Part shown: piece by piece, positions 12,440-35,368 of the stretch
Layout: each line of letters starts with the position of its first letter
Numbering within the stretch: position 1 is the stretch's first letter
The notes under the pieces: generated by a model
What the model was told of the DNA's origin: nothing
The model's input: only the letters and a program-made list of their open reading frames with translations
The model's database searches: none
NCBI GenBank assembly: GCA_031292625.1
Contig: JARLGU010000053.1
Span: 186,001 to 250,000, forward strand
Source: Capsulimonadaceae bacterium
Lineage (GTDB): Bacteria; Armatimonadota; Armatimonadia; Armatimonadales; Capsulimonadaceae
Length of the DNA: 64,000 nt
Direction: 5' to 3'
Made by a program: the position numbers and the translations under genes

Positions 12440-12469
12440 ACATTGCAACGCTATCTATACAGATGGAAA

Positions 12470-15142
12470 TTACTCCCCGAGCTCGTACCACACGGTCCGG
12501 TACTCCGGCCCGATCGTAAACGATGCCGCGCCCCCGGCAACCGTGACCGGAACCGCCTTCGCCCGCGCGCCGGTCGGGTCGAGCGCCCAGACATGCTTCA
12601 CGTTCGCGTTCGCAAGCGTCACCGTCGCCGGGATGCCCTCGGCCTGCACGGGACCGTGTCCCCAGTTCTTTCCGACACTGGTTCGATCCGCGTTCCAGCC
12701 CATATCGAGATTCTCCGCCTTGCCCGTGATGGTCAGCAACAGTCGGCGCGATGTGTTTAGCGGCTTGGTGTCGAGCGAAACAAGCGTGAATGCCGCGAAG
12801 TTGTTGCCAAACGGAGGAAAGGTTAGCTTCGCAATGCCGGGATCTAGCGATTGACCGCCAACGAATCCCGCAACGGCCACGCCCTTTTCGCCCTGCCCGA
12901 TATAGATCGCGCCGTTTTCGCCGTGCTGGACACGCGCGCCCGAACTGCCAGATCTCGTCACGAACTGCTGGGTCAACGCGCCCGCCGAGAGATCCTGGGA
13001 TAAACGCGTCTGCAGGCGCGAGCCGAAGATATCGAGCGGCTTGCCCTTACCTGCGATTGCCCACTCCCCTTTGGCATCTCCCGAAGATTCGACGGACGAT
13101 TTGGCGAGGTTCAGAGTCGTTGCTGCCGGAAGCGGTGAAAGGGCGCTATCTCGAAAAATGATCGCGGCCGAGGGATAGAACGTTACCCTGGCAGGATCAT
13201 CGGTGACGTCGAAGAAGGATCTTATTTGATCTTGCTTGCCGGCGTCGCTGTAATACCTTTCCATCGAGAAGAAAAAGATCATGTCCCAGTCCTGAAGCGC
13301 GGCAAATGTCGAAAGTTCCGGCATCATCTCGGCCCGAAATTCGCTCGGCGCTGGATGGTCGTACTCGGAAACCGAGAAAGGTTTATCGGCAATTCTTCTC
13401 GATGCAAGACTATGAAATGTCACAACCTTTCCATCCGCCATATCCGAAACCATTGGCGTGTTGCGAATGATCCAATGTGAATTATCCCAGCGACCAGTTG
13501 GAAAATTTGGATGCTGCCAATAAGCGTGCATATCCGCGTAATCGCTCCCTGCCTCGCGCGCGAATCCGGAAAGGCCCCCATAGCTCACCTGCGTGTCCGT
13601 AATGCAGGACATGACGCCAAGGTCACGATGCAGAAATGTTCGCATTTCGTCGGCATAACTGCTCTCCGTATAAACTAAAAACCGGTGCCAATCTGCTGTT
13701 GCCACAGTCGCCCCGCCGGACGGGATTGCAACTGTCCCGTTCTCCACGGATTGATGCTCCATGGTTGCCGCGATATCGTCAATGGTCGTTCGCCTAAAGC
13801 CAATATCACTTAGCTTCACCGTTCCCGCGGCATCGCCAACCGGGATCGAAAGCCGGACTCCATTTCGTATGACCTGCGAGGCGCGGAAGATTAGATGAAA
13901 CACTTGCCAGTCTGGCGACAGCGTAACAACTCGGTCAAGGCCGACACAGCGCCAATCATTCTGCGCTTGGTGCTGCTCGGCGCAAGCGTATAATCTAATC
14001 GGCCGCTCCGCATCTGCCCTCGCACGAAAGGAAAGCGTGTACTCATCGTCTTCGTGAAGATCCAGACCATAGATCAAGGCCTGAACTTGCCAGACTTGCG
14101 ACGGCTTAACGGGACTGTCAATCTGGACGCTGGCCGGATCGTCCTTCGTGCCGCCGCCAGTTTGCGTCAGTTTCGCGAAGCCAGTACGGTCCTCTAGCGT
14201 CCAGATCGGATGATTGCTTCCTCCGAAAACCGAAGGCGGCTCCGAGCTTGCAGGAAGTGCTCCAAGAGACCACGCAGCAATGAGGGCGCCGTCGGTGCGG
14301 TACTTGCGTTTGAGCCAAGCGTTCCAAAGATCGATAAGCTCTCCGTGAAACGGTTCAGGAAGTTTGTCGAAGAAATCAAAATCTGATCGATCACCGTCTC
14401 CGACTAGCGAATCTTCGTTGTTGATCTCGACCACTGCGACACATGGATCGGCCGCGTAGCTAAACCCAGTGTACGGGTTGACATGGGACAGGTAGTTAAG
14501 CGCAAACTGTTTTTGCAGTTCGATCATACGATGGTCGTAAATATCTACACGCTTATCGAAAATGGAGTCAATTCGCAATACGGACTCTGGGAAACCATCA
14601 GACGGAATATAGGACCGTCCTACGTGCAGATTCAGATCTACATAGATCCCATTCGCCTTGAGTTGTGCAATCAAGTAATCAAGTCGATCCAGAGCCTGCA
14701 CGGAAAACCGAGCCGGCCCCATACCATCGCTTTCCCAAAGGTCGGAGTTCAGTCCTCGAGCTGGATTGCGGTCGTCCTCGCCGTGCATCCGCACGATGTT
14801 GATGCCCAGCCGCGCCAAGCACCCTGCGATCCGTTCAGCATCTGCATGACTAGGGAATTCGTTATCCGGACCAAAACCTATTCCCAAAAAACGTACACGA
14901 TCTCCGGTGCGAGATGCGACAAAGTGCCCATTTCTGACGACGATCCTACCGTTCACTCCCGCTGGTTTCGCGTTCAGAAACGAAACGTCAATAGACGTTC
15001 CCAGCGATGCTTCATTCCAAGGAATAACGAATGGAAACATGGAAGCCGGCTTGGTTTGCTCTGCAGCTTCAAGTGTGGAGGGAGCCGTGATCCCGACAAA
15101 GCAGAGAGCTAACGAGAATAGGATACGAAGTAGGTGACGCAT
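12470..15142 (-). CDS. Secreted GH5-like (clan GH-A) glycosidase with CBM-like insert and conserved tail
   Basis: A protein of 890 residues from the ATG at 15142, which gives a proper signal peptide (MRHLLRILFSLALCFVG). The start at 15193 would add a non-signal extension. The order is: MFPFVIPWNEAS and DVSFLNAKPAGVNG; barrel strands with VRFLGI, INIVRMHGED and GIYVDLNLH; the acid/base pair in VVEINNED (E243); a beta-sandwich at about 315-465 resembling CBM4/9 (YTLSFRARAD, VRLSIPVGDAAG); the nucleophile strand FSVSEYDHPAPS (E593); beta-sandwich domains; and the tail EGIPATVTLANANVKHVWAL to WYELGE. About 350 residues separate the two catalytic glutamates, far more than in ordinary GH5. Subtype FPFVIPW, paired with the long pilin subtype. 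Substrate unknown. Confidence 0.85.
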   Translation of the reverse strand: MRHLLRILFSLALCFVGITAPSTLEAAEQTKPASMFPFVIPWNEASLGTSIDVSFLNAKPAGVNGRIVVRNGHFVASRTGDRVRFLGIGFGPDNEFPSHADAERIAGCLARLGINIVRMHGEDDRNPARGLNSDLWESDGMGPARFSVQALDRLDYLIAQLKANGIYVDLNLHVGRSYIPSDGFPESVLRIDSIFDKRVDIYDHRMIELQKQFALNYLSHVNPYTGFSYAADPCVAVVEINNEDSLVGDGDRSDFDFFDKLPEPFHGELIDLWNAWLKRKYRTDGALIAAWSLGALPASSEPPSVFGGSNHPIWTLEDRTGFAKLTQTGGGTKDDPASVQIDSPVKPSQVWQVQALIYGLDLHEDDEYTLSFRARADAERPIRLYACAEQHQAQNDWRCVGLDRVVTLSPDWQVFHLIFRASQVIRNGVRLSIPVGDAAGTVKLSDIGFRRTTIDDIAATMEHQSVENGTVAIPSGGATVATADWHRFLVYTESSYADEMRTFLHRDLGVMSCITDTQVSYGGLSGFAREAGSDYADMHAYWQHPNFPTGRWDNSHWIIRNTPMVSDMADGKVVTFHSLASRRIADKPFSVSEYDHPAPSEFRAEMMPELSTFAALQDWDMIFFFSMERYYSDAGKQDQIRSFFDVTDDPARVTFYPSAAIIFRDSALSPLPAATTLNLAKSSVESSGDAKGEWAIAGKGKPLDIFGSRLQTRLSQDLSAGALTQQFVTRSGSSGARVQHGENGAIYIGQGEKGVAVAGFVGGQSLDPGIAKLTFPPFGNNFAAFTLVSLDTKPLNTSRRLLLTITGKAENLDMGWNADRTSVGKNWGHGPVQAEGIPATVTLANANVKHVWALDPTGARAKAVPVTVAGGAASFTIGPEYRTVWYELGE

Positions 15143-15234
15143 TATTGATGAAGTAACCTTTCCAGAATGGTTGGCGCCTGACAGTGTCGGCATCGAGTGC
15201 CGGAAGGCGTGCGAAGCTCACTGGAGTGGCTTCT

Positions 15235-16113
15235 CTAGAGCAAAGAGAACGTGGCCGCATACGAGACCGGATTGCTGCAACCGACTGTTGGTGCAGCGGC
15301 GTCGAATCCCGGAGGACATGTGGCAGAAATGAGGGATCCTCCTTGAATAACATCTTTCCCCGCGCCAACCATGCCGGGCTGCAGAAACTTTGCGTGGCAA
15401 TCCGCCATGAGATAATTCGCGCCGTTTTGATGACGCCCCAATCCGCCAACCGTGAAATACGAGTTCGCCGTGATGTCGGCTGGATTGCCGTCTGAAGACC
15501 ATGTGGTCGTGACGGCGGCATTGCCGAGAAGCCCCGTCGCAAATTTAAGAGACGTTGCAGCCTGACCGTAGTTTGCTCCGTTCGGAGTGAGGCCGTTCCC
15601 GACAGGAGAGCACTGGGAATCGCCGCTCGTTAACCCACTGCGCAGACTTACCGACCAGTTTCCATTACAATTGACGACCTCAAAAAGCATCACCGTACTC
15701 GCTGGCGCAGTCATCTGCGAAAGAATTGCGGGGATGGCAGTGGCTGGAACCGTAGTCCCATTTCCTTTATATCCGACCATATTTGTGTTCGCGGCATAGG
15801 ATATGACATCCCCCGGCGCTACGTCATCCGGGCAAAGATAGGTCGCCGTGCTTTTGACATACGGATAAACTTGATTTGCCCAACCGTTGCCGCCCCCCCA
15901 ATTGTTTGTGCCGCAAGGAACCGTCTCGTCATAGTCCTGCTCGTATTGGTTATATGCTAACCCCAGCTGCTTGAGATTGGATAAGCATGCACTCATTCTT
16001 GCTTTCTCTCTTGCACCTGCGAACACTGGAAATAGAATCGCTGCCAGTATTGCGATGATTGCTATAACAACTAATAGTTCTATAAGAGTAAACGCCATTA
16101 CCTTTCGATGCAT
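15235..16113 (-). CDS. DUF1559 pilin-like protein, long subtype
   Basis: A 292-residue pseudopilin. The leader is [20 protein letters not shown], with Ala rather than Gly at -1 and the conserved Glu at +5. The globular domain has [35 protein letters not shown] and GDVISYA, which mark the long subtype. In the C-terminal box [12 protein letters not shown] the usual DG is DC. GGAG lies eight bases before the ATG. It sits 31 bases after the regulator and 92 bases before the glycosidase. Codons of the leader helix are AT-rich against a GC-rich gene. Confidence 0.92.
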
Positions 16114-17651: not shown

Positions 17652-20264
17652 CTACTCCCCGAGCTCGTACCAAACGGTCCGGTACTCCGGCCCGATCGTG
17701 AACGTCGTCTGGCCGCCGCTCACGGTCACCGGAACCGCCTTCGCCCGCGCGCCGGTCGGGTCGAGCGCCCAGACATGCTTCACGTTCGCGTTCGCTAGCG
17801 TCACTGTCGCCGGTATGCCCTCCGCAAGCGCGGGGCCGCTGCCCCAGTCCTTGCCGACGCTATTGTGAGCCTCATTCCAGATCTGCCCGGCCTTTTCCGT
17901 TCGCCCCGCGATCGTGACGAGAAGCGAACGGGATTCGGAAAGCGCCTTACCGTCGCGGCCGATGATCGTCAGCGATGCGAAGTTGTCGCCAAACGCCGGA
18001 AATGAGAGGGTCACCGGCCCGCTGGTCCCGGTCTGCCCGCCAACAAACCCGGTCATCACGAGCGCCCGGGATGACGTGGCGACGTAGACCGGTCCCGATG
18101 GAAACTTGACGACGCGCACGGTCTGATCCCCATTGGATGACGACGGAACCGGACTAGAAATCGATATTGCGCTGGCCTTTTCATCGACGCTTCGCCCTAG
18201 CCGGGTCGTCAACAGATTCGGCAAGCTGAGCTTCGCCGCGCGCGCTAGCTCCATCGTACTTGCAACATTCGCCAGCGACGCCGACGGCAGTGTCACGATC
18301 GCTTCGTTAGCGGCCGGTGCGATCGCTCCTTCACGGAAAATGGCGGCGGCGGCGGGGAAGAACGTCTCCTTAGCCGGGTTGCCGCCGCAATCGAACCACG
18401 GATTGATCGTTGCCTTGTCCGCGAACCAGAAGACCCCATCCCAATCCTGCAGGGCCGCGAAAGACATATACAGCGGCACGCCCTCGACCTGGAAATCGCT
18501 GGGAGCTGGATGGTTGTACTCGGATACCGTGAACGGCCGTCCGGCAACCCGCTCGATCGCGCTCCAGCCAAGGTACGCCTGATCGTCCCGCCCTAGATCA
18601 TCGACAACAGGCTTGTTGCGCTGTGTCCAGTTCTCCCTTCCCAAGGACTTGCCGCCGGTCGCGCTGGGATGGTCCCAGTAGGAATGGTGGTCGATGAAGT
18701 CACTGAAAAGCTCCCGCCTTAGTCCTGCGACGCCGCCATAGCTCACCTGGGTATCGACAACATTGGCCTCGCAGCCGATCTCGCCCTTAATCAGTGCGCG
18801 CATACGCTTCGTATAGGCAATATCGAGGTCGGAGAGGAACTGGGTCCAATCGGCCGTTATCGCAGGAAGATTTAGCGTGGGGATGTCAATGCTGCTCGTC
18901 GCAAGGCTCGCTCCCCGCGCGATCACGGATTCGATCGTGGCAGGCTCCAACCGCACATCCGCAACGTCAACGGCTCCGGTGTCGTCGCCTGGGCCAAACG
19001 AAAGCCGGACACGATTTGCAACGGTCGCCGATGCGACAAACCGCATCACGAATGTTTGCCAGTCCGTGGTTAAATCGCAGCGGCGACTAAGCCCCGCGGA
19101 ATGCCAATCGGGGATTTCAAGGCTCACGCCAGCCCGAAGCGGACGAGGCTTATCGGCCCTTGCGCGAAACGAAAGCGTATAAAGCCCGCCATCGACGAGA
19201 TTGAGGTCTTCGATATGCACCTGCTCCTTGTAGAGCATATCGGGCTTAACTGGGCACTCGAAATGAAACGGCGGAATTGCGCCGTCGGAAGCCGGCTCGC
19301 CGGCTGCGAGCTTGGCGACGCCAAGATGATCTTCAAGATGCCAGGTCGGTGTCTTCGTAAGGCTCGCGAACGGCGACGGCGACGGCAAACGCGCCCCGGA
19401 GAACCAGGCGCTGCTCAGCGCTTCGTCGCTCGAATAGCGTTTCTTTAGCCAGTCGTTCCACTTGCCGCGAACTTCGGAGCGAAACGGTTCCGGGAGATTG
19501 AAATAGTAGTTGCCATCGCCAACGGGCATACCACTTAGAGTCGAGTCCTCGTTGTCGATCTCGACAATAGCGACCACCGGATCCTTGGCATAGGAAAGGC
19601 GCGTGTAGGCGTTTACATGGCTGAGATAGTCTCGCGCGAACTTTTCCTGCAACTCGATCATGCGCTCATCGATGCGAGCGAGGTGCTTCTCGAATGGCTT
19701 AGGCAGAGTCTCCACCGAGGGAGGCATCCCGTCGCTGATACGGAACGAGCGCCCCGCATGCAGGTTTAGATCCACGTAGATGCCATGCTGTTTGAGTTGG
19801 AAAATGTAGTAGTCCAGCCGGTCGAGGCCGTCAGGATCGAACTGGGGATCCGTGCCCATCGGCTTCTTCCAGATCTGGCTCCCGTTGCCATCGACCATGT
19901 GCAATCGAACGAGGTTGATGCACATCTTTGCATAGTGCGCGGCGATCGCATCCGAACCGGCATGATCGGGGAACATAAACATGGAGTTGAGACCCAGGAA
20001 GCGAACACGCTTGCCGGTCTTCTCCTCGACGAAATGGCTGCCCTTGACCACGATGCGCCCTCCCGCACCGGCAGGCAGCGCATTGAGGAAGGACATATCG
20101 GTCGCGTTCCCCGCCCCCGAGCCATTCTGCGGTATGTCGAACGGAAAAAGACTGTTCGCAGCCGAAGGCCCCGCCGAAGCGCTTGAGAGACAGCCAAGGC
20201 CGGCAAGAAGCCAAACCAAAACCAACGGAAAAGAGAACTGCCGCAGCAAAGTCTTTGAGGTCAT
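17652..20264 (-). CDS. Secreted GH5-like (clan GH-A) glycosidase with CBM-like insert and conserved tail
   Basis: An 870-residue paralogue of the enzyme at 12470-15142. A signal peptide (FSFPLVLVWLLAGLGCLSSASA) contains a cysteine, so lipidation is possible but the lipobox is imperfect. It then has SLFPFDIP, MSFLNALPAGAGGRIVV, INLVRLHMVDG, GIYVDLNLHAGRSF, the acid/base VEIDNED (E239), a CBM-like insert at about 305-445 (YTLSFRARAD, VRLSFGPGDDTG), DTQVSYGG, the nucleophile FTVSEYNHPAPSDF (E582) and the tail EGIPATVTLANANVKHVWAL to WYELGE. Subtype FPFDIP, shared with the enzyme at 53651-56248; both are paired with short-type pilin-like genes. It starts 30 bases after the pilin-like gene. The substrate is unknown. 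Confidence 0.85.
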   Translation of the reverse strand: MTSKTLLRQFSFPLVLVWLLAGLGCLSSASAGPSAANSLFPFDIPQNGSGAGNATDMSFLNALPAGAGGRIVVKGSHFVEEKTGKRVRFLGLNSMFMFPDHAGSDAIAAHYAKMCINLVRLHMVDGNGSQIWKKPMGTDPQFDPDGLDRLDYYIFQLKQHGIYVDLNLHAGRSFRISDGMPPSVETLPKPFEKHLARIDERMIELQEKFARDYLSHVNAYTRLSYAKDPVVAIVEIDNEDSTLSGMPVGDGNYYFNLPEPFRSEVRGKWNDWLKKRYSSDEALSSAWFSGARLPSPSPFASLTKTPTWHLEDHLGVAKLAAGEPASDGAIPPFHFECPVKPDMLYKEQVHIEDLNLVDGGLYTLSFRARADKPRPLRAGVSLEIPDWHSAGLSRRCDLTTDWQTFVMRFVASATVANRVRLSFGPGDDTGAVDVADVRLEPATIESVIARGASLATSSIDIPTLNLPAITADWTQFLSDLDIAYTKRMRALIKGEIGCEANVVDTQVSYGGVAGLRRELFSDFIDHHSYWDHPSATGGKSLGRENWTQRNKPVVDDLGRDDQAYLGWSAIERVAGRPFTVSEYNHPAPSDFQVEGVPLYMSFAALQDWDGVFWFADKATINPWFDCGGNPAKETFFPAAAAIFREGAIAPAANEAIVTLPSASLANVASTMELARAAKLSLPNLLTTRLGRSVDEKASAISISSPVPSSSNGDQTVRVVKFPSGPVYVATSSRALVMTGFVGGQTGTSGPVTLSFPAFGDNFASLTIIGRDGKALSESRSLLVTIAGRTEKAGQIWNEAHNSVGKDWGSGPALAEGIPATVTLANANVKHVWALDPTGARAKAVPVTVSGGQTTFTIGPEYRTVWYELGE

Positions 20265-22997: not shown

Positions 22998-25328
22998 CTA
23001 ACGGGCGAATGCCGCGAGGCCGCAGCAGGAACTAAACGACTGCGAAGCGTCGTCGCCGCTCGCTGGCGCACCAAGCACACGGACCGCGACCACGGATACA
23101 GGAGCAAAAGCCGCCTCGAATTTCCGCCCTGGCTTTAGCCCGCCGGCAGCGGTCTTTGTCGTATCCGGATAGCTGCTGAGGGTCGCAACCGTCACCCACG
23201 CCCCGCCAGCCGTCTGCTGGACCTGTACAACCGGTTTCCCCGCCGAACCGGACGTATCGAACCAGCCGCCATCGTGAAACGTCTGCCCATGCGCAAATAC
23301 GACTCTGCTAGCCGTGACAGGCTTTGCCATCGTCACGGCATACCAATCTAGCGGCGCCAAGCGTCCGTCGTACGTAACGGTCAGCGAACCATCGTCGTTT
23401 GCAAGAGAACCGCTCCTGTTTCCAACTCGAGACGTCGACGTCACACCGCCTGAAAGAAGAGAAAGGGCAGTCGTGCAGCGCGGAATCCACACCTCATAAT
23501 GACTTGTTCCGTTATGTCCGGCGAATGCGAACGGTACAAGGTTGAGCGTCACCGGCTGATCATTGACATCGAGCCCCGTAGCTTGAAACACCGGTTCGCC
23601 CGCCAGTGAATGTCCGGAAACAAGCCGCGGATTTAGCTTATTCGCGGAGTCGGAACTGAGCTTTACGCTGCCGACGCCAGGGATCCCGGGGTTGTCAGCC
23701 TCATCGAGCGCAAGAACCAGCGGGCCGTACTCCACGGCCGCGGTTCCTTCGACGGCGGACTTGCCGAGAACGATTCGCTGGCTCAGCTTGAACGCGATCC
23801 CAACACGATCACCCTGCCTCCACGCCCTGTTCACGACGGCGTACGTTCCCGGCGCCGCGGCGACGTGCGAAGATTTGCCGTTGACGGTTATAGCGGTCCC
23901 ATTTGCCCATGACGGAATGCGCAGGCGCAACGGGAATTGCTGCCCATTGCGGACCGGATGCACATACAGGTCAACATGGCCGTCAATTGGATACCGGGTC
24001 TCCTGGCGAACGGAAACGACTCCTGACGGAATGCGCGCCTGCGCAGTGCTGGGATTGTAGAGATTGACGACGATCCCGCCGTCGGAGCTCGTCATGTAGG
24101 CGATGGACGTTAGCAGCGCGATGCCCCTCGGACCGCTCGAATGACAGCATGTGGTAAAGCGGTCATACTGCTTATGTCCGTCGAGCGGCGTGTAGTAAGC
24201 CCAGTCGTCGCCGGTTGGTTTCTGCGCCGCCAGGAGATGATTGTAGACGGTCTGCTCGATCGCGTCGGCATATTTGGCGTCACCCGTTAGGCGCGCGAGC
24301 TGGAGGTTAAATTGCTCCCAGGTCACGGTGACGCAGGTTTCGCAAATATTATCGAGTTGAGCGCTAACCGACTGCTTATCTTCGATAAAATGCTCGCCCG
24401 CAGATGCGCTGCCAGTCGGATAGAGGTGGTTCTCGACAATATCGTCCCAGCCGATTTTCATATTGCTGAGCAGATCCGAGTCCCCAGTCGCCCGGTACAG
24501 CTCGAGGACGCCATTGAAATTGGACAGCATTTCGTACGCCTTGGCGTTTCCAACGCGTTCGACCGAGTGGTATTGCTTGAGCGCGCTAAGGAGTTTCGGG
24601 CCGGTAGGAGCGTCGTAATGCAAGATAATATAGTGCGCAAAATCCTTGTATCGTTGATAGCCAGTCGCACGATAGAGCAGCACGATTGGCTCGAGAACGC
24701 TATCCGGCGCGAGGCCCATATGGCCGCCTGCCAGATTAATATCTCGTTGACCGGGACCGGGCCCGAAGGTCTTCAAGAGGAGATCGCCGATTTTAACGCA
24801 AGCCGACAACACGGCTTGACTATGCGTGTATTGATAGTAAGCGAGAAGACCGAGTAGATCGTATTTATGAGTCCAAACGTCCCAGCTCGTCCATCGATTC
24901 TTACTCGCGTACGTGCCAAGGTACCCATCCGGCTCCTGCGTTTTCAATAGGCGATCCGCCACGCGATCGGCCTTGGCCCGGAGCGCCGCGTCTTTTGTGC
25001 AGGCCCAGGTTAACATCGCAGCGTGAAGAAATTTGCCGCAATGTTCTCCCTGCCACGCTTGGTGGTCAACATCGCGGCGTTCAAACGCATCCAGCAGATC
25101 GTTCTCGTCGACGTTCAGCAGGCGGTTGGTCTCGTTGGCATTGTAGCGATCTCCCAACAATCCGCCGTTGAAATGTACATCCTCGGGCATGAGTGGAACG
25201 AATCGATCCGCCACGGCCTGGGTCCCGGGGACCACTAGACCGCTTGGGTTCTGTTGGGCGTGCGCCGCGGAAAGGCAGAGCAATGCGCAGAAGCAAACAG
25301 ACGGAAGAAACTGGCAAACAGCCTTCAT
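22998..25328 (-). CDS. Secreted GH127 family enzyme (beta-L-arabinofuranosidase type)
   Basis: A glycoside hydrolase of 776 residues that probably removes terminal beta-L-arabinofuranose or a related sugar. The ATG at 25328 follows AAGGA by eight bases and gives a signal peptide (FLPSVCFCALLCLSAAHAQ). The (alpha/alpha)6 barrel has FNGGLLGDRYNANETNRLL, EPDGYLGT and ILHYD. The active-site set of the family is complete: GEHF (E312, candidate acid/base), ICETC (E330 and C332, metal ligands) and TTCCHSSGPRG (C394 nucleophile candidate and C395). A C-terminal beta-sandwich and a discoidin-like segment (GVTSTSRVGNRSG onward) follow. It lies 131 bases after a GH5-like enzyme, so the cassette encodes two different hydrolases. 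Confidence 0.9.
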   Translation of the reverse strand: MKAVCQFLPSVCFCALLCLSAAHAQQNPSGLVVPGTQAVADRFVPLMPEDVHFNGGLLGDRYNANETNRLLNVDENDLLDAFERRDVDHQAWQGEHCGKFLHAAMLTWACTKDAALRAKADRVADRLLKTQEPDGYLGTYASKNRWTSWDVWTHKYDLLGLLAYYQYTHSQAVLSACVKIGDLLLKTFGPGPGQRDINLAGGHMGLAPDSVLEPIVLLYRATGYQRYKDFAHYIILHYDAPTGPKLLSALKQYHSVERVGNAKAYEMLSNFNGVLELYRATGDSDLLSNMKIGWDDIVENHLYPTGSASAGEHFIEDKQSVSAQLDNICETCVTVTWEQFNLQLARLTGDAKYADAIEQTVYNHLLAAQKPTGDDWAYYTPLDGHKQYDRFTTCCHSSGPRGIALLTSIAYMTSSDGGIVVNLYNPSTAQARIPSGVVSVRQETRYPIDGHVDLYVHPVRNGQQFPLRLRIPSWANGTAITVNGKSSHVAAAPGTYAVVNRAWRQGDRVGIAFKLSQRIVLGKSAVEGTAAVEYGPLVLALDEADNPGIPGVGSVKLSSDSANKLNPRLVSGHSLAGEPVFQATGLDVNDQPVTLNLVPFAFAGHNGTSHYEVWIPRCTTALSLLSGGVTSTSRVGNRSGSLANDDGSLTVTYDGRLAPLDWYAVTMAKPVTASRVVFAHGQTFHDGGWFDTSGSAGKPVVQVQQTAGGAWVTVATLSSYPDTTKTAAGGLKPGRKFEAAFAPVSVVAVRVLGAPASGDDASQSFSSCCGLAAFAR

Positions 25329-25459
25329 AAGCGGGGTCCTTCTCGTTGCGTTGTAATATGCACCGGGGACAATCACAATCATCTTTATGATAGACGCATA
25401 AACGCACGAATTGGCCCAAAACTCCTCGCCGTATTTCAACGCAATCGCCGCCGCGCCGT

Positions 25460-28108
25460 CTACTCCCCGATCTCGTACCACACCGTCCGGTACTCCGGGC
25501 CGATCGTGAACGACGCCTTGCCGCCGCTCACGGTCACAGGGACTTCCTTCGCCCGCGCGCCCGACGGATCGAGCGCCCAGACATGCCTCACGCTCGCGTT
25601 CGCCAGCGTCACCGTCGCCGGGATCCCCTCCGCCTGCACCGGCCCATGCCCCCAGTGATTGCCCACCGATGTACGAGAGGAGTTCCAGACCATGCCGAGG
25701 TTTTCAGCCTTGCCCGTGATCGTCAAGAGGAGGCGACGGGAAATCCCGAGCGGCTTAACGTCCAGCGAAACCAGCGTCAACGCCGCGAAGTTGTTGCCGA
25801 ACGCGGGGAACGTAAGCGACGCAGGTCCAAGCGCGACCGTTTGCCCGCCGACGTAGCCCGTTGCGGCTATTGCGGCCCTGCCTTGGGCTAGGTACTGCGA
25901 ACCCGAAGCTGTCGTGATTGCCCGAACGCCGGCTTCCGTATGAGCGGCTTGTGTCTTCACGAGTGTTGTGCTTTTAACCTTACGATCAAGCACTGTCTGG
26001 AAGCGAGCCGACATCAGATCAGGGGAATGCTGGCCGCATGCGTCAGACCAGGCCCCCGTCACACTACGATGCCCAGAGGGAAAACCGGCTGGCAGGTGAA
26101 GGGCGGCAACGAACGACAGCGGCGAAATCAGTTCCTGGCGGAACAGCAATGCGGCGGAAGGGAAGAACGCTTCCTTCGCCGTGTTTTGCGCGAGACCGAA
26201 GTGGTCCTGTATCCGGTCGTGCGGTCCGGTAGACGTGTAATAATGCCCATAGGCGAAAGGATAGATCATGTCCCAGTCCTGCAGCGCCGCGTAGCTCGAT
26301 AGGATTGGCATCATCTCAGCCTGGTAGTCGCTCGGAGCGGGATGGTTGTACTCGGAAACCGTATAGGGCTTTCCGGCAAGCCGGTACGCAGTCAACCACG
26401 TCAGCGTGTTTCCCTCTCCCTTGGCCAGCGCATCCGTCATCGGCGTGTTCCTAATGGTCCAATTCGACGAGTCCCAGTGTTTGCCCGGAAACTCAGGGTG
26501 CTGCCAGTAGGCGTGGATATCCAAAAGGTCGCTGCCCCCTTCGCGCGCCAGCCCTGCCTGCTCGCCGTATTCGACCTGGGTATCGATGATGTTCGCGTGG
26601 ACCTTGAGATCCTTACGCAAGTATGTCCGCATCTCATCGGCGTAGGCGCCCTCCGTATCCATGAGAAACCGGCGCCAATCGGCCGTCGACGCGTCGACGC
26701 CGTCTACTGGGATTTCAACAGTCGCTTGTTCGACGCTTTGGCCGCGAAGTGTCGATGCGACATCGTCGGCGGTCACACGCTTGAGACGGACATCGCTCAG
26801 CCAGACTGCCCCAGTCGCGCCGCCGATAATGAACGACAAACGGTTCCGATTGGCAAGAACCTGTGACGCCGGAAATAAGAAGCGATAACCGCGCCAGTCC
26901 GAACCGACGTTGAGATCGCGCATCAGACCGATATTGTGCCAATCATGATGCTCTGGATCGTCGCTCGTTGCGCAGACTTCAAGGGACCGATCTGTATCGG
27001 CTTTCGCGCGAAACGATAGCATATACTCGGCGCCCTCTTGAAAATCGAGGTCCCGGATCAGAGCCTGAACTTGCCAAGCTTCCGCTGGCATCACCACACA
27101 GTCGACCTGAACGGCAGCGGCGTTTTCCGGCGATTGGTCCCCAGCATTCGTCAGCCTCGCAGATCCCGTATGGTCCTCAAGCGTCCAAGTTTTGTGACTG
27201 AGTTTATTGAGCGCCGCATCATCCACAGCGTCTTTGCCGCTCCACGCGCCAAGGGTCCACGCTGCGCGAAGCGCGTCGTCGCTCGCGTACCTGCGCTTCA
27301 GCCAGGCGTTCCATTGACCGACAAGCTCTCCGCGGAACGGCTCCGGAAGTTTGTCGCAGAACGCAACATCGCCGACCTCAGAGGCGACGAGCGAGTCCTC
27401 GTTGTTAATTTCCATGACCGCGACGCAAGGATCTTGCGCGTAGGTCATCTTCGTATATGGATTAACATGGGTCAGGTAATCCCGCGCGAACTGCTTCTGA
27501 AGATCAATCATGCGCCGGTCGAAGTTGTCGACCCGCTTATCGAATTCCGTCGGAATCTGCGAGACCGAGTCGGGAAAGCCATCCTCAGGGAAATAGGCGC
27601 GAGCCGTATGCAGGTTCAGGTCAACATAGATGCCCTGCCTCTTAAACTGGGCAATAAGGTAGTCGAGACGCTCAAGGCCATCGCCGCCGGGCCTCGCCGG
27701 ACCCACTGCGGATTTGTCCCAGATTTCTGAAATATGGCCGGGCGTCCGCCAGTCCTCATGATGGACTCGCACGATATTGATGCCCATCCGAGCAAGACGA
27801 ACCGCGACTCTTTCCGCGTCCGCATGCGTAGGATAGTTCGACATGGTGCCGAACGTGATGCCGAGGAACCTTACGCGTTTGCCCGTCTTGCTCTCGACGA
27901 AGTGGCCATTCTTGGCGACGATGTATCCGTTTATTCCCGCGGGTTTTACGTTGAGCGAAGAGACGTCGATCGCGCTGTCCTGCGACGCTTCGTCCCAGTT
28001 TGCGACGAAGGGAAACAGCGCGGGTGACGGAACAGGCTCGCCCTGACCCGCAATCGCAGCAAAAACAAATATGGCGACGCAAATAGTTGATACGTTCAAT
28101 GTACGCAT
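25460..28108 (-). CDS. Secreted GH5-like (clan GH-A) glycosidase with CBM-like insert and conserved tail
   Basis: An 882-residue member of the paralogous family. Its signal peptide is MRTLNVSTICVAIFVFAAIA. Subtype FPFVANWDEAS with DVSSLNVKPAGINGYIV, close to the enzymes at 12470 and 30307. Catalytic landmarks are INIVRVHHEDW, GIYVDLNLHTARAYF, the acid/base VMEINNED (E237), the CBM-like insert at about 308-445 (YMLSFRAKAD, LSFIIGGATGAVWLSDV), DTQVEYGE and the nucleophile YTVSEYNHPAPSDY (E586). The tail reads EGIPATVTLANASVRHVWAL to WYEIGE. It lies 86 bases after the pilin-like gene and is followed by GH127. Substrate unknown; pairing with an arabinofuranosidase hints at a branched plant polysaccharide or glycoprotein glycan (inference). 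Confidence 0.85.
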   Translation of the reverse strand: MRTLNVSTICVAIFVFAAIAGQGEPVPSPALFPFVANWDEASQDSAIDVSSLNVKPAGINGYIVAKNGHFVESKTGKRVRFLGITFGTMSNYPTHADAERVAVRLARMGINIVRVHHEDWRTPGHISEIWDKSAVGPARPGGDGLERLDYLIAQFKRQGIYVDLNLHTARAYFPEDGFPDSVSQIPTEFDKRVDNFDRRMIDLQKQFARDYLTHVNPYTKMTYAQDPCVAVMEINNEDSLVASEVGDVAFCDKLPEPFRGELVGQWNAWLKRRYASDDALRAAWTLGAWSGKDAVDDAALNKLSHKTWTLEDHTGSARLTNAGDQSPENAAAVQVDCVVMPAEAWQVQALIRDLDFQEGAEYMLSFRAKADTDRSLEVCATSDDPEHHDWHNIGLMRDLNVGSDWRGYRFLFPASQVLANRNRLSFIIGGATGAVWLSDVRLKRVTADDVASTLRGQSVEQATVEIPVDGVDASTADWRRFLMDTEGAYADEMRTYLRKDLKVHANIIDTQVEYGEQAGLAREGGSDLLDIHAYWQHPEFPGKHWDSSNWTIRNTPMTDALAKGEGNTLTWLTAYRLAGKPYTVSEYNHPAPSDYQAEMMPILSSYAALQDWDMIYPFAYGHYYTSTGPHDRIQDHFGLAQNTAKEAFFPSAALLFRQELISPLSFVAALHLPAGFPSGHRSVTGAWSDACGQHSPDLMSARFQTVLDRKVKSTTLVKTQAAHTEAGVRAITTASGSQYLAQGRAAIAATGYVGGQTVALGPASLTFPAFGNNFAALTLVSLDVKPLGISRRLLLTITGKAENLGMVWNSSRTSVGNHWGHGPVQAEGIPATVTLANASVRHVWALDPSGARAKEVPVTVSGGKASFTIGPEYRTVWYEIGE

Positions 28109-28194: not shown

Positions 28195-29070
28195 TTATCG
28201 CAAGGCGAACGTCGCGGTGAGCGGCGGATTATTCGAGCCGATGCACTCCGTTGTGATGGCTAGACTGTTCCACGTGCCCGCACACGTCGCAAGATCGTTT
28301 TGATGAAGCCAATCCCAGCCGGCGCAGACCTTCGAGGCCAACAGCCATTTAGCGTGGCAATCCGCCATCAAGTAGTTTGCGCCGTTATTGTGGATGCCGA
28401 GGCCTCCTGGGAGAAAATGGGAATTCGTCGGGGTGATGTTTGCAACATTATTGTCAGGGTTGATATCCGCATAGGCATTGTAAAACACGCCCGTGTTGAA
28501 CTTGAGCCCCGTTGCCTGGGGCGAGGTCCCATTGTCATTTGCGCCGTTGAGCCCGTTGGATCCCGAGGAACTGATGCCGTTGCCGACTGGCGATCGCTGA
28601 TTGTCAGTCGATGGACTCGTCAGCGAAAAGCCCGACGCCTGGCAATTGACAACCTCAAATAGCTGAACCGTACAGGACGGAGCGGTAAGAATCGATGTCT
28701 GCGCCGGAACAGGCGTTAGCGGTGAAGTAATGTAGTCGACCAGATTGCAATTCATCGCGTAGGATATGACATCGCCGGGCCTTACGTCATCGGGACACAA
28801 AAACGCCGCCGTGCTCTTAACGTAGGGATACACCTGAGCGCCCCAGCCCGGACCAGCCCCCCAGGAGTTTGTGCCAACTGGAACCGTTTCATCAAAATCT
28901 TGTTCGTACTGCGCCATGGCTAAACCGATCTGCTTCAGGTTTGACAGACAAGCCACCCCCCGCGCCTTCTCACGCGCCGTCGCGAACACGGGAAACAATA
29001 TTGCTGCAAGAATCGCAATAATAGCTATAACAACTAGCAGCTCTATAAGCGTAAACCCACGATGCTTCAT
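28195..29070 (-). CDS. DUF1559 pilin-like protein, long subtype
   Basis: A pseudopilin of 291 residues from the ATG at 29070, chosen because AGGAGAGAG lies upstream and the leader then begins [20 protein letters not shown]. The in-frame start at 29172 would put 34 residues before the leader. Gly is at -1 and Glu at +5. The domain has [35 protein letters not shown] and GDVISYA. The C-terminal box is [12 protein letters not shown] then HAKWL, with DC in place of DG. The regulator stop lies 17 bases upstream. Confidence 0.92.
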
Positions 29071-29087
29071 CACGGCTTTCTCTCTCC

Positions 29088-30140
29088 TCAATCTACAAAC
29101 TCGCGAAGTCCTGCTCGCTTCCCATCGGTTAAATACGCAGTCGACTTGCGCAAGATCAATTCGACCGGCCAATTCACCTTACGCGGGGCAACATTGGGCG
29201 CCGCAATCATATCGAAAAGCATCCGCGCCGCCTCGACTCCAAGCGCCTCAAGGCGCTGACTGACCGTCGTCAATGCCGGCACGGAAACCTCTCCGTCGAA
29301 CTCGCCGTTGACTCCGACCACAGATATCTGCGTGGGGACCTGCACCCCGGCTTCACGAAGACCTTGGATCGCCTCGAGGGCAACCCGGTCCGTCGCGCCA
29401 AAAAGCGCGGTAACCTCAGGCAGAAGAGCGGCGGCCCGTTTGGCGTTTTCAAACGGCGAGCATAACGGCCTTCGCCCAAACACGAGCCGTTCATCGAATG
29501 GCACGCCGCCTACCGCAAGGGCGGCCTTGTAGCCCTCAAGCCTTTGATGCGTAAACAACCGCTCTTGCCCATCGTAAAAGAAGGCAATTCGTCGATGACC
29601 AAGCTCCAGCAGGTGCTGCGTGGCGATCTGTCCCGTTTGAAAATTGTCGATGTCGATGGAGCTCATATCGGCAGGCGTTTCGCCGCTGTTTACCGCAACG
29701 AACGGAATATTGGCGCATTGCAAGCCCTGCGTCAGCCCTTGGATCTCCAGCGCCGCGATGACGATAAGTCCGTCACAGCGGCCGTCCAGAAAAATCAGCC
29801 TGTCGGGATCATCCGGAGCCCATACATTGCCATCGAAAAGCGCCATTGTCTGCCCTGTCTGCATGGATGCATCTAGGACGCCGCCAATCACCTGAACAAA
29901 GTACGGCATCGTAAACAGGTGAGGATGCAGGGGTGTTACGACCCCGATCATGTTCGTTCTGCCCTTGCGCAACGAACGCGCCGCTGCGTTGGGGCGATAG
30001 CCAAGTTCCTTCGCCGCCTGCAAGATGCGATGCCGTGTTTCGTCGGTCGTTCGCGTTCGCGGCGAGCCGGTTAAGACCTGCGCTACCAGACTTCGGGACA
30101 CATTCGCGCGACGCGCAATGTCGGACTGGGTCGTTGCCAC
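29088..30140 (-). CDS. LacI family repressor
   Basis: A 350-residue regulator. The N-terminal LacI HTH is [20 protein letters not shown], with the hinge region [18 protein letters not shown] at about 50-67. The sensor domain has [68 protein letters not shown] and [20 protein letters not shown]. It heads the fourth cassette, ahead of the pilin-like, GH5-like, GH127 and lipoprotein genes. The near-perfect TGATAAC-N4-GTTATCA palindrome sits inside its own promoter spacer, a classic autorepression arrangement. The effector sugar is unknown. Confidence 0.94.
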
Positions 30141-30267: not shown

Positions 30268-30306
30268 ATGCTGGCTTTAGCTTCTTTCGCTATGCCTTTC
30301 GTCCGC

Positions 30307-32922
30307 CTACTCCCCGATCTCGTACCACACGGTCCGGTAATCGGGACCGATCGTAAACGACGCCTTGCCGCCGCTCACGGTCACAGGGACTTCCTTCACC
30401 CGCGCGCCCGTCGGGTCGAGCGCCCAGACGTGCTTCACGCTCGCGTTCGCAAGCGTCACCGTCGCCGGAATCCCCTCCGCCTGCACGGGGCCACGCCCCC
30501 AGTTCCGGCCGACACTTGTCCGATCCGCGTTCCAGACCATGCCGAGGTTCTCCGCCTTGCCCGTGATCGTCAACAACAGATGGCTCGATTGCCCGAGCGG
30601 CTTGGCGTCCAAGGTCGTCAGAGTCAGCGCCGCGAAGTTATTGCCGAACTCCGGAAAGGTCAGCTTCGCGGTCCCAAGGTCGACCTGTTCGCCGCCAAAG
30701 AATCCCGCCGCCGCGGAGGCTGCGCTGCCGACCGCGAGATACTGTGAACCCGCCGGCGACGAAACGGCCTTGACGGATGTAGCCGATGCAGGTCCCGTCG
30801 AGCGCACCAACTTCGGCGCCGTCACCGTGCGATCGACGACGGTCGCGATCCGGTTCGCGGTAAGATCCGGCAGCTTACCGTCGCTCGCCTTGCGCCACAA
30901 CTCCGTCGTCATGTCGATGCCGTACGGAAAGCTCGCCGGCACGTGGAGCGTCGCTTTGGACGATAAGGGGGCGATGAGCCCCTGCCGGAAGATCAACGCC
31001 GCCGCAGGGACGAACGCCTCTTTCGCGGGGTTGCCCTGCATGGTGAAGAAGCCCTGGATGCGGTCGAGGGTGCGACCGGTTCCGTAGTTGCCGTAATCGA
31101 ACTGGAAGATGGCATCCCAATCCTGCGCCGCCGCGTAGCTGGCGACCTCCGGATACATCTCTGCCTGATAGTCGCTTGGCGCTGGATGGTTGTACTCGCT
31201 CACCGTGTACGGCTTCCCGGCCATGCGCTCGCAGGCGAGGTGCGCAAAGTTGCCGCCATTGCCCTTGACAAGATCATCCGTCATTGGAGAGTTCGGGACC
31301 AACCAGTTGACCGGGTCCCAGGGTCGGCCTGGGAAATGAGGATGCTGCCAATAGGCATGGTTGTCGATAAAATCGCTGTCCGCCTCGCGCAAGAATCCCG
31401 CGGGATCGCCGTAAGACATCTGCGTGTCCACGATGTTGCCGTGCACCTTCAGGTCGTTCCGCAGGTAGGCGCGCATTTCGTTGACATAGGCGAGTTCCGT
31501 ATCCACCAGGAACTTACGCCAGTCGGAGCGCTGCTCGTTCGTCGTGAGCATCGGAAAATCGAGGTTGTGCGCTTCAAGAGACTGCCCCTTATCGAGTACG
31601 TCGTCGCTTGTCGTACGCGAAAGCTTGACGTCGGCCAACGAGAGTTCGCCTGCGCTGGTTCCGAGGATGAATGAGAGGCGAGCATGGCCCGGCATCGTAC
31701 GCACAGCCTGGAAAACGTACCGGAACGTGTGCCAGTCGGGACCGACCTTCAGGGACGCATCCAATCCTAAATGATGCCAGTCATCCTGATCCAAACTCGT
31801 ATACGCTTGAACGACTTGCTCTCTGTCGGACTTCGCGCGCAAACTCAGCATATACACGCCGCCCTCGTTCAGGTTAAGCCCGGTGACGTGCAGCTGCTTC
31901 CACCACGCTTGCTCCGTCGGCCCCGGGTTCACGATGTCTACCGCAGGCATCGTGGATGTCGTGCCAGGTCCGACGGTGGTGAGCTTGACATCGCCGACGC
32001 GATCCTCGACGCGCCATTTGAGGTTCGAGCCGAGCAGGTCGACCGGCCCGGTAGCCGCGGCGGCCGGCGCCTTAACCCACGCCTTGCGGAGCACGGCGGT
32101 TGTGCGGTACTTGCGCAACAGGTAATCGTTCCATAAGCGAACAACTTCGCCGCGAAAAGGTTCTGGAAGCTTGTCGAAGAATTGGTTCGGACTTTCCGTC
32201 GGCCAGCCCGCCAACGTGTTCTCGTTGTTGATCTCGATAATCGCAACGGCCGGATCATTTACGTAGCTAAGGCCGGTATACGGATTAACTCGGGTCAGGT
32301 AGTCCTTCGCGAACTGTTTCTGCAGATCGATCATGCGCCGGTCCAGGTTGTCGATCCGCTTATCGAATTCAACATCCGTGATATCGTTCACCGACGCCGG
32401 GAAGCCATCCGCCGCCGTGAACTTGCGGCTGACATGCAGGTTCAGATCGACATAGATACCGTTCTTCTTAAACTGAGCAAGCAGATAGTCGAGCTTATCG
32501 ACCGCAACCGGATCGAATTTCGTATGCCCGCCAGTGGACTTGTCCCATAGAGGCGAATGGTCAATATCGTGGTGGTGGATGCGCACAAGGTTGATGCCAA
32601 GCTTCGCCAGGTGCGCCGCGACCTTATCGGCGTCTTCGTGCGACGGGAAATCGGACGCGAACGTGAAGTTCGTCGCCATGAAGCGAATCCGCTTGCCCGT
32701 TTTGGCTTCGACGAAGCGACCGTCCTTCACGACGATAAATCCGTTCACGCCCGCCGGCTTCGCGTTCAAATAGGACACATCGACTGCCGTCCCGGGCGTA
32801 GCGTCGTCCCACGGGATCACGAACGGAAACATCGAAGGCAATTTAGCGTCATCCGCCCGAGCAAACACAGTCGTTGCCGCTAGACAGATGAGCCCAAGTG
32901 CGAAGACAATGAAGGTACGCAT
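30307..32922 (-). CDS. Secreted GH5-like (clan GH-A) glycosidase with CBM-like insert and conserved tail
   Basis: An enzyme of 871 residues from the ATG at 32922, which gives the signal peptide RTFIVFALGLICLAATTVFA. The frame extends to 33090 without signal character. Subtype MFPFVIPWDDA with DVSYLNAKPAGVNGFIVVKD. Landmarks are INLVRIHHHDIDHSPLWDKS, GIYVDLNLHVSRKF, the acid/base IIEINNEN (E234), the CBM-like insert at about 305-440, DTQMSYGD, the nucleophile YTVSEYNHPAPSDY (E576) and the tail EGIPATVTLANASVKHVWAL to WYEIGE. Unlike the other cassettes it is 473 bases from its pilin-like gene and has its own promoter (33102-33130). Substrate unknown. Confidence 0.85.
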   Translation of the reverse strand: MRTFIVFALGLICLAATTVFARADDAKLPSMFPFVIPWDDATPGTAVDVSYLNAKPAGVNGFIVVKDGRFVEAKTGKRIRFMATNFTFASDFPSHEDADKVAAHLAKLGINLVRIHHHDIDHSPLWDKSTGGHTKFDPVAVDKLDYLLAQFKKNGIYVDLNLHVSRKFTAADGFPASVNDITDVEFDKRIDNLDRRMIDLQKQFAKDYLTRVNPYTGLSYVNDPAVAIIEINNENTLAGWPTESPNQFFDKLPEPFRGEVVRLWNDYLLRKYRTTAVLRKAWVKAPAAAATGPVDLLGSNLKWRVEDRVGDVKLTTVGPGTTSTMPAVDIVNPGPTEQAWWKQLHVTGLNLNEGGVYMLSLRAKSDREQVVQAYTSLDQDDWHHLGLDASLKVGPDWHTFRYVFQAVRTMPGHARLSFILGTSAGELSLADVKLSRTTSDDVLDKGQSLEAHNLDFPMLTTNEQRSDWRKFLVDTELAYVNEMRAYLRNDLKVHGNIVDTQMSYGDPAGFLREADSDFIDNHAYWQHPHFPGRPWDPVNWLVPNSPMTDDLVKGNGGNFAHLACERMAGKPYTVSEYNHPAPSDYQAEMYPEVASYAAAQDWDAIFQFDYGNYGTGRTLDRIQGFFTMQGNPAKEAFVPAAALIFRQGLIAPLSSKATLHVPASFPYGIDMTTELWRKASDGKLPDLTANRIATVVDRTVTAPKLVRSTGPASATSVKAVSSPAGSQYLAVGSAASAAAGFFGGEQVDLGTAKLTFPEFGNNFAALTLTTLDAKPLGQSSHLLLTITGKAENLGMVWNADRTSVGRNWGRGPVQAEGIPATVTLANASVKHVWALDPTGARVKEVPVTVSGGKASFTIGPDYRTVWYEIGE

Positions 32923-33395
32923 AGGCGAGGTTTTCCTTTTGTTTGGCTGCCGTCCCGAAGAAGACGGCGGCGTTCTGAAGCGATTATTACATCCGCTGGA
33001 TGCATGTCGGAAGCTGAAGGCTGGCTTCCGCGATTCGTGCAAAGAACACGAATTCTTAGACGTCGAGAGGCACAATTTATTCGTGCACAAACGCTCGTGC
33101 TATTCTATCACCATGCGTTCCGCGTGTCAAGCGCCAACGCGGAACGCGAGCCGGGCGATCGCGTCTATAACTGTTAACAGCTGCGCGAGTCCGGTCCTGA
33201 AAGGGCCGGCCTGTGTTGAGACAGCCCGTGAACGGGCCTAATCGGTAGACCGCCAGCATTTTCGTGATCCGGCAGTCCCGTTGATGGGGCTTGAAATCTC
33301 AGGACGGTCGTTCACGGCCGGAAACTGCGCCAATATCGGTGACAATCGTTGATATGAGTAGATGCGATTACCCTTCGGAACGCGAGCAGGCTTCG
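32923..33395. other. Long leader between pilin-like and glycosidase genes
   Basis: These 473 bases hold a promoter at 33102-33130 and short GC hairpins on the minus strand. One is GCCCGT-TC-ACGGGC at 33226-33239, without a T tract. A TTCGTGCACAAA near-palindrome at about 33080-33091 could be an operator. I see no gene here. The region may let the glycosidase be expressed separately from its cassette. Confidence 0.5.
33102..33130 (-). promoter_or_regulatory. Internal sigma70 promoter for the glycosidase
   Basis: On the minus strand TTGACA (33125-33130) is followed after 17 bases by TAGAAT (33102-33107), about 180 bases before the glycosidase ATG. The hexamers equal those of the LacI-type gene promoter at 35396-35424, so the two may have a common origin. 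Confidence 0.75.
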
Positions 33396-34289
33396 CTAGC
33401 GAAGTGAGAACGTCGCCGCGTAGCCAATCGGACTTGTGCAACCCACCGTCGGCGCGCGGTCGTTGAACACCGGCGGACATTGAGCCGCATAAAGCGTCCC
33501 CTCGGCGATCCAGTCTCGACCGGCTCCAACCATGGCCGGCTGAAGGAACTTCGCATGGCAATCCGCCATCAAGTAGTTTGCGCCGTTTTGATGCCGTCCA
33601 AGCCCTCCAACCTGGAAGTACGAATTGGTCGGCGAAATATCCGCGGGATTGCCGTCGCTCGATGCGTTCTTAGAGGCCGCATTTCCGAGCAGGCCGGTCG
33701 CATACTTGAGGTTCGTCGCCCCCTGCCCCTTATTGTAACCGTTCAGCCGTCCATCCCCCAGCTCGTCGCTGCCATCCCCGCATGGGGAGTTCTGGGTGTC
33801 GCCGCCAGACGCCCCGTTTGGCACGCTGACCGACCAAGGGCCGTTGCAGTTGACGACCTCGAATAGCATCACCGTACTTGCCGGTCCCGCCATTTGCGAG
33901 ATGATCCCCGGGATTACGCTCACCGGTATCGTCGTGCCATTTCCGTTGTAGCCAACCATGTTCCTGTTTACCGCGTACGATATGACATCCCCGGCCGCGA
34001 CGTCGTCAGGACACAAATAGGCCGCCGTACTCTTGACATACGGATAGACCTGATTGGCCCAACCGTTGCCGCCGCCCCAATTGTTCGTTCCGCAAGGGAC
34101 CGTCTCATCGTAGTCCTGCGTGTACTGACTGTACGCAAGTCCCAACTGCTTGAGATTTGACAAGCAGGCAGTCATCCTTGCCTTTTCGCGCGCCTGGGCG
34201 AACACAGGAAATAAAATAGCCGCAAGAATCGCAATAATAGCTATAACGACGATCAATTCAATTAATGTAAAAGCACGATTTGTTTTCAA
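33396..34289 (-). CDS. DUF1559 pilin-like protein, long subtype, TTG start
   Basis: A 297-residue pseudopilin. An AAAGGAG ribosome site lies six bases before a TTG at 34289, which gives [20 protein letters not shown]. The upstream in-frame start at 34337 has no such site and overlaps the regulator. Ala is at -1 and Glu at +5. The domain shows [35 protein letters not shown] and AAGDVISYA, and ends [12 protein letters not shown] then HAKFL with DC for DG. It is very similar to the protein at 15235-16113. It lies 44 bases after the LacI-type regulator. Confidence 0.92.
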
Positions 34290-34333
34290 TTTCGACTCCT
34301 TTAATGCGTTATAAGGTCGTTCGCTCCATACGC

Positions 34334-35368
34334 TCACGGGAAACCAACCAGCTCATTCGTCCTTACACAAACCGACTCGCGTTCAACAAGATGCACCTGC
34401 CAGACCGTATGACCAGCCTCGGAATCCGGGTTCTCAATCGCACCCATCAGAGTACGAGCCGCCTCGACGCCAAGCATCTCCAGCGACTGGTCCAGCGTCG
34501 TCAGTTTCGGAAACGATCGTGCGCCGTCCAGCATTCCGTCGATGCCGATTACGGACATATCCGCCGGGACCCGAACGCCTGCGTCACGAAGGCCCTGGAT
34601 GGCGCCGAGCGCGAGCAAATCGGTCGCGCAAAAGAGCGCGGTCAAGGCGAGAGACGGATCTGACACAATGTTCGTCGCGTGCTCGTAACCCATCTCGGAA
34701 GCGTTGTTGCCAACAAAGCTCCAGGCCGGGTCAAAGTCGATTCCGCAATCCGACAAGGCGTTCCGGTAGCCTTCAAAACGATCGATAGAAAACGCGCGCG
34801 TTTCGTCCGCATGTAAGAAGCCTATTCGCCGGTGCCCGCGTTCCACAAGATATCGCGTTGCATCGTATCCAGCCTTGATATTGTCAATATCGATCGTATG
34901 CACGTTGTTCAGTGCTCTTCCCCCGTGCAAGACGACGCAGGGCAGCTTTGACTTCGCGACCGCATCAAGGACATCGAAATCCGGTATCCCCACCATAATC
35001 AGCCCGTCACAACGACCGTCCGAGAAGATCAGGCGGCTTGAATCGTTGCGCTTCCAGACCGTCGCACTGAAGAGCGTCACGGTTAACCCGAATTGAGCGG
35101 CTTCGTCTACGATGCCCGCGATGATCGACGCATAATATTGCAAGCCCAGGATATGCGGCACCTCAGGCGTCCATATCCCAATCGCACCAGCCCGCTGCAT
35201 CGACAGCCCGCGCGCCAAAGCGCTGGGCTGATAGTCCATTCGCTTCACCGTCTCCAGGACCCGCTCCCGCATTTCGCGGCTGATCTTCCGATCGTTGCCG
35301 TTCATGACGAGCGACACGGTTGTCTTCGACGTCCCGCAGGCTTTAGCAATGTCGCTAATCGTGGTCAT
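34334..35368 (-). CDS. LacI family repressor
   Basis: A 344-residue regulator. The LacI HTH is [20 protein letters not shown] with the hinge-helix region [20 protein letters not shown] at about 48-67. The sensor domain shows [72 protein letters not shown] and [20 protein letters not shown]. It heads the fifth cassette. A consensus LacI-type operator with a central CG (GGAAAACCGGTTTACC) lies four bases upstream of the start codon and below the promoter, so binding would block elongation or initiation. The effector is unknown. Confidence 0.94.

Follow-up and report, generated by a model that had tools for sequence, protein, structure and literature searches.

The closest described counterpart of the genes analyzed here is the babA/babB/babC family of Helicobacter pylori, whose members vary in the middle and are >90% identical across a C-terminal homology region (PMC4552749). 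As recounted in that paper, with reference to Pride and Blaser (2002; pmid 11866522), this likeness is attributed to intragenomic recombination and gene conversion. Long-lasting concerted evolution, by which prokaryotic paralogues in the same genome are more alike than their age predicts, has been outlined at the gene level and judged against orthologues (Wang and Chen 2018, PMC6053082), and GC-biased gene conversion has been outlined for bacteria as a raised GC content of recombining regions (Lassalle et al. 2015, PMC4450053).

We analyzed a 64,000-nucleotide stretch of a Capsulimonadaceae genome (contig JARLGU010000053.1, positions 186,001 to 250,000; hereafter the window) that contains five paralogous genes, e1-e5, encoding clan-A glycoside-hydrolase-like proteins of ~900 aa and clustered within 44 kb. 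Like the bab genes, these paralogues share a near-identical C-terminal region. The bab products are adhesins of the outer membrane that show phase variation and whose near-identical segments are recent, whereas e1-e5 encode secreted-looking enzymes, with sharing limited to the 3' end and an old conversion. In contrast to the gene-level concerted evolution outlined by Wang and Chen, the shared segment amounts to ~190 bp of 2.6-kb genes. The genes, their tails and two control genes are as follows.

12470-15193, minus strand: e1, secreted-looking GH5/42-like enzyme with a CBM4-like insert and a C-terminal beta-sandwich
12470-12660, minus strand: e1 tail, homogenised last ~63 codons plus stop
15235-16113, minus strand: pilin-like DUF1559 gene upstream of e1, control
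17652-20264, minus strand: e2, same enzyme family as e1
17652-17842, minus strand: e2 tail, shortest shared segment, silent change-point at about codon -53 to -68 in most pairs
25460-28108, minus strand: e3, same enzyme family as e1, AlphaFold model pLDDT 87
25460-25650, minus strand: e3 tail, 92% DNA identity to the e4 tail
28195-29172, minus strand: pilin-like DUF1559 gene upstream of e3, control
30307-33090, minus strand: e4, same enzyme family as e1
30307-30497, minus strand: e4 tail, possibly nearest to the donor type, upstream bins also GC3-rich
53651-56248, plus strand: e5, same enzyme family as e1
56058-56248, plus strand: e5 tail, inverted relative to the e1-e4 tails

The true start of e4 is probably the ATG at MRTFIVFALG rather than the listed TTG. 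The GH127-like gene at 22998-25481 starts, as listed, inside the end of e3, and its real start probably lies further in.

In sequence and fold, the e1-e5 proteins match GH5 mannanases of Thermotoga and other organisms as well as CBM4, and they are also related to GH42. Residues N236-E237 and E586 are invariant in 31 sequences, giving the catalytic acid after Asn (NE) and the second Glu nucleophile of a clan-A barrel. From these matches and invariant catalytic residues, we assign e1-e5 a putative activity as GH5/GH42-type clan A glycoside hydrolases. They differ from GH5 mannanase-like enzymes in that full-length family scores are weak, no curated family covers the whole protein, and the barrel sequence is interrupted by the CBM4-like sugar-binding domain. 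Elsewhere in the genome, proteins carry relatives of this insert as domains in their own right, in some cases in tandem (L025-L031; contigs C26, C55, C34 and C33). The AlphaFold model of e3 shows the tail as strands 821-881, the last seven of the C-terminal beta-sandwich (pLDDT ~95), and several residues invariant across the family fall within it.

Previously, it had been proposed in a first-pass annotation that the five enzymes carry near-identical C-terminal tails on divergent bodies and that the tails agree at synonymous positions too. We found all five tails at the 3' ends listed above. Protein identity among e1-e5 was 84-93% over the last ~57-65 codons and 39-51% in the body, and the same codon was used at 67-84% of identical residues in the tail compared with 37-47% in the body. 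Averaged over the 10 pairs of a codon alignment (tail: last 65 codons; body: all but the last 90), protein identity was 0.85 in the tail and 0.44 in the body, codon identity at identical residues was 0.71 and 0.43, bearing out the synonymous agreement, and identity at four-fold sites was 0.69 and 0.34, so that ~31% of four-fold sites within the tails already differ. Codon identity in body windows of 62 columns never exceeded 0.60 (mean 0.43, sd 0.06). At invariant residues, one codon was used in all five genes at 19 of 43 tail positions and at 15 of 158 body positions (Fisher P = 9e-7).

The limits of this likeness are sharp. An unguided repeat search recovered the tails as direct repeats at 12466, 17648, 25456 and 30303 and as inverted repeats reaching 56248, with the highest DNA identity (92%) between the e3 and e4 tails (25456-25755 and 30303-30602). 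Within the tail, mostly 20-25 of 25 bases match; the last bin before the stop codon retains 20-24 matches, and the likeness falls to about chance immediately past it (2-12 of 25). Silent change-points in the ten e1-e5 pairs had LRs of 13.8-35.5, close to the 99% null value or higher, compared with mostly <10 in control pairs; in one of the latter, G002-G006 (LR 14.2), the change had the opposite direction and lay elsewhere in the gene. In most e1-e5 pairs the boundary fell at about codon -52 to -68. It lay farther upstream in e3-e4 (-113), e1-e4 (-171) and e2-e5 (-289), and intervals were wide for several pairs. These differing positions suggest that conversion tracts differ in length; the segment shared by e3 and e4 is possibly longer than the others.

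The tails and bodies also have different genealogies. The nearest body relatives of e5 and e4, the copies C45 (64% aa) and C14a (58%), respectively, lie outside the cluster. The e5 tail is nevertheless 82-85% identical to its cluster mates versus 68% to C45, and the e4 tail 82-91% versus 75% to C14a. The body tree was rejected by the tail DNA (AU p = 0.002) and weakly by the tail protein alone (AU p = 0.07). When free and scaled branch lengths were compared on the body topology, the LR was 192.5 for the tail versus 30-102 for body windows, the largest of which came from the windows adjoining the tail. In the tail, the e1-e5 branches shrink to 0.05-0.12, whereas those of the other copies stay at 0.2-0.6. 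Tail ancestry is younger than body ancestry, and the effect is confined to the copies within 44 kb. In the tail, neither a longest-silent-run test (GENECONV-like) nor a mosaic test (PHI-like) was significant; their power is low there as all five genes share the segment. These tests expect a signal solely from recent pairwise events, and they are supportive rather than strictly defining; given their outcome, the exchange is not recent. The conversion is old, and no individual recent tract can be identified.

The tails are further set apart by their codon usage. In the e1-e5 tails, Ala is encoded by GCG in 91% of cases, Arg by CGG in 83% and Lys by AAG in 100%, compared with 46%, 24% and 70% across 32 further genes from the window. 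The tails have a GC3 of 0.87-0.92 and the bodies one of 0.55-0.73, a rise at the 3' end of 0.13-0.31 that is found in e1-e5 only (-0.01 to 0.10 in the other six copies). A general 3' rise in GC3 is not present in 32 control genes, where the change is 0.013 ± 0.064 with a maximum of 0.12. When codons were shuffled synonymously within each tail, the expected codon identity was 0.60 ± 0.016, and the observed 0.714 exceeded all 1000 shuffles (maximum 0.655). Codon bias consequently accounts for a large part of the agreement but not for all of it: roughly, the rise from 0.43 to 0.60 is shared composition, and that from 0.60 to 0.71 is position-specific. The high GC3 of the tails resembles GC-biased conversion as outlined by Lassalle et al. 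Unlike that process, third positions in the tails show a rise in G and none in C, which simple GC-biased conversion does not predict. As only G rises, biased conversion is no more likely than the spread of a G-rich founder tail. The last 120 codons of e4 are GC3-rich throughout, and its tail is on average closest to the copies outside the cluster; for both reasons e4 is possibly the tail donor.

We consider it probable that this pattern arose as linked paralogues underwent segmental gene conversion (partial concerted evolution) while purifying selection held the tail residues. The process is already known in principle, and the e1-e5 tails are a new example that is clear through its sharp limits and odd codon usage. 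The tails would be the 3' part of one ancient paralogous family, overwritten from one another after the genes had diverged by homologous recombination, that is, by gene conversion with possibly some unequal crossing-over. Recombination between linked copies may have begun in the best-matching 3' segment. Downstream, it would have been limited by the unrelated DNA past the stop codon, beyond which exchange could not have passed because that DNA is unrelated, and upstream it would have faded where the bodies are too different. Conversions of the body were probably selected against, as the catalytic and sugar-binding parts differ. Conversions of the tail may have been tolerated, since this half of the sandwich is structural and lies outside the catalytic domain, so that its replacement would do little harm. 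A G-ending, GC-rich type of tail would have spread along with these events, from one founder (perhaps e4-like) or through GC-biased conversion; where exchange began, which way it ran and how the third positions became G-rich are what we infer here. The locus thereby would offer a cleanly bounded, statistically testable instance of partial concerted evolution within a bacterial gene family for polysaccharide degradation, and it links local recombination with a codon-usage anomaly that is likewise local, which is useful for testing composition bias from conversion in bacteria.

Tail-bearing copies in the genome number 11: e1-e5 (contig C20), C14a, C14b, C45, C22, C26 and a copy split between contigs C30 and C8. 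A weak DNA match on contig C17 was discarded, as none of the open reading frames listed near it is related to the enzyme family. Among the 61 genomes searched (this genome and 60 relatives), the tail was found in 27; in relatives it always ends a long enzyme-like frame, and it occurs in orthologues across the phylum. The first-pass annotation had named equal synonymous divergence in tail and body, together with absence of the tail from relatives, as grounds for abandoning its claim; we found unequal divergence and tails in relatives. More than one tail match was found in 1 of the 19 genomes of the class, this genome itself. In single-copy orthologues the tail is conserved no more than the body, and in same-family orthologues the two are similarly identical (body/tail 61/54% for G001-G004 and 73/70% for G002-G006). 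Other multi-copy genomes likewise have tails conserved no better than the bodies, and same-family paralogues of four other genomes showed no codon excess in the tail. Within the genome, the C22 and C26 tails are 46-63% identical to those of other copies, about their body level, and in copies outside the 44-kb cluster the tail effect is absent or weak even where the body is closest to a cluster member.

These comparisons bear on the possibility that purifying selection acted alone, a strong shared constraint on the tail having produced the codon agreement as a by-product. The C8 copy has a tail protein identity of 81-89% with silent sites near background, demonstrating that selection on tail residues also acts, and together with the residues of the tail that are invariant family-wide it is what favors this explanation. 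Selection contributes. As the sole cause it is largely refuted by a tail codon identity of 0.67-0.84 and by the conflict between tail and body genealogies. The tails of orthologues, C22 and C26 are conserved no better than their bodies, and the effect is missing or weak in the body sister pairs e5-C45 and e4-C14a. Nor does protein constraint give codon sharing in the pilin control: DUF1559 pilin N-termini from these cassettes roughly equal the tails in protein conservation (73-93% identity), yet their codon sharing stays at background (0.22-0.57). The cluster pilins at 15235-16113 and 33396-34337 have ~75% protein identity after the N-terminus with a codon identity of 0.45, and therefore are not being homogenised. 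We regard selection alone as an improbable explanation.

Less probable still, by a clear step, is direct selection on the tail DNA as a nucleic-acid element, such as an RNA structure, a regulatory site or an integrase target. The shared third positions are G-rich and homology stops exactly at the gene end, as it does at many integration sites. Folding and covariation analyses, on the other hand, revealed no stable or covarying RNA structure in the tails (folding z-scores 0.12 and 0.34; unfavourable covariation term), no common sequence lies past the stop codon, no integrase was seen beside the tails, and the tail DNA is not kept in the other copies.

The first-pass annotation had offered a choice between gene conversion and a shared sorting, surface-attachment or pilin-docking function. 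Gene conversion is supported by the genealogy conflict, the restriction to linked copies and the shared silent sites, whereas the functional half of that choice is unsupported, and we judge a sorting, surface-anchoring or pilin-docking module to be slightly less credible even than a nucleic-acid element. The enzymes do have signal-peptide-like N-terminal segments, and most copies sit behind DUF1559 pilin genes. The tail, in contrast, consists of strands of the enzyme's own sandwich and is not separable from the fold (pLDDT ~95 in the e3 model). When the genome was searched with a tail profile, it was found on the 11 copies of the enzyme family only (next match E = 3.3); no unrelated cargo in the genome carries it, as C-terminal sorting domains of the T9SS CTD, PEP-CTERM or LPXTG type would require, so it is no sorting tag. 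In five same-family orthologues that carry the tail, the flanking 1.5 kb on each side contain no pilin motif, the C22 copy has a tail and no pilin, and orthologue tails lack the extra conservation that a docking surface should show. As C22 and 9 of 10 relatives' loci have no pilin (no motif within 1.5 kb of the match on either side), the tail does not depend on association with a pilin. Paralogues can have a strongly conserved C-terminus without its being a sorting signal.

A recent cassette duplication followed by fast divergence of the bodies under positive selection would fit cassettes in tandem and in the same order, and can be set aside, since body silent sites are saturated (codon identity 0.37-0.47), so that the bodies are old and not merely fast-evolving in protein.

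Nearly every copy (window 7000-57000; L060-L064) lies in a cassette of a transcription regulator, a DUF1559 pilin-like gene and the enzyme, with the regulator being of LacI, GntR, TetR-like or AraC-like class in different copies. Only past the e3 tail, where the gene at 22998-25481 lies, is the next same-strand gene something other than a cassette regulator. Searches of the literature for DUF1559 in Armatimonadetes and for Capsulimonas genomes yielded nothing about these regulator-pilin-enzyme cassettes. We think it unlikely, if a little less so than selection acting alone, that the tails are recombination joints of the cassette array, with each direct-repeat interval from e1 to e4 being one regulator-pilin-enzyme unit. 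If they were, an entire cassette would be lost, duplicated or relocated by crossing-over between tails, with every gene left intact, an integron-like shuffling by homologous recombination without a dedicated recombinase. The locus is of interest chiefly as a place to test local conversion and composition, cassette joints being a distant prospect beside it.

A repeated element with the ends AATACCTCGGGGCTTGTCCCCGA appears to interrupt the eleventh copy (end of L064 on C30 and end of L065 on C8) near residue 540. AGGATG is present at each of the two junctions, the pattern expected from a target duplication, and this copy was probably split by an insertion sequence.
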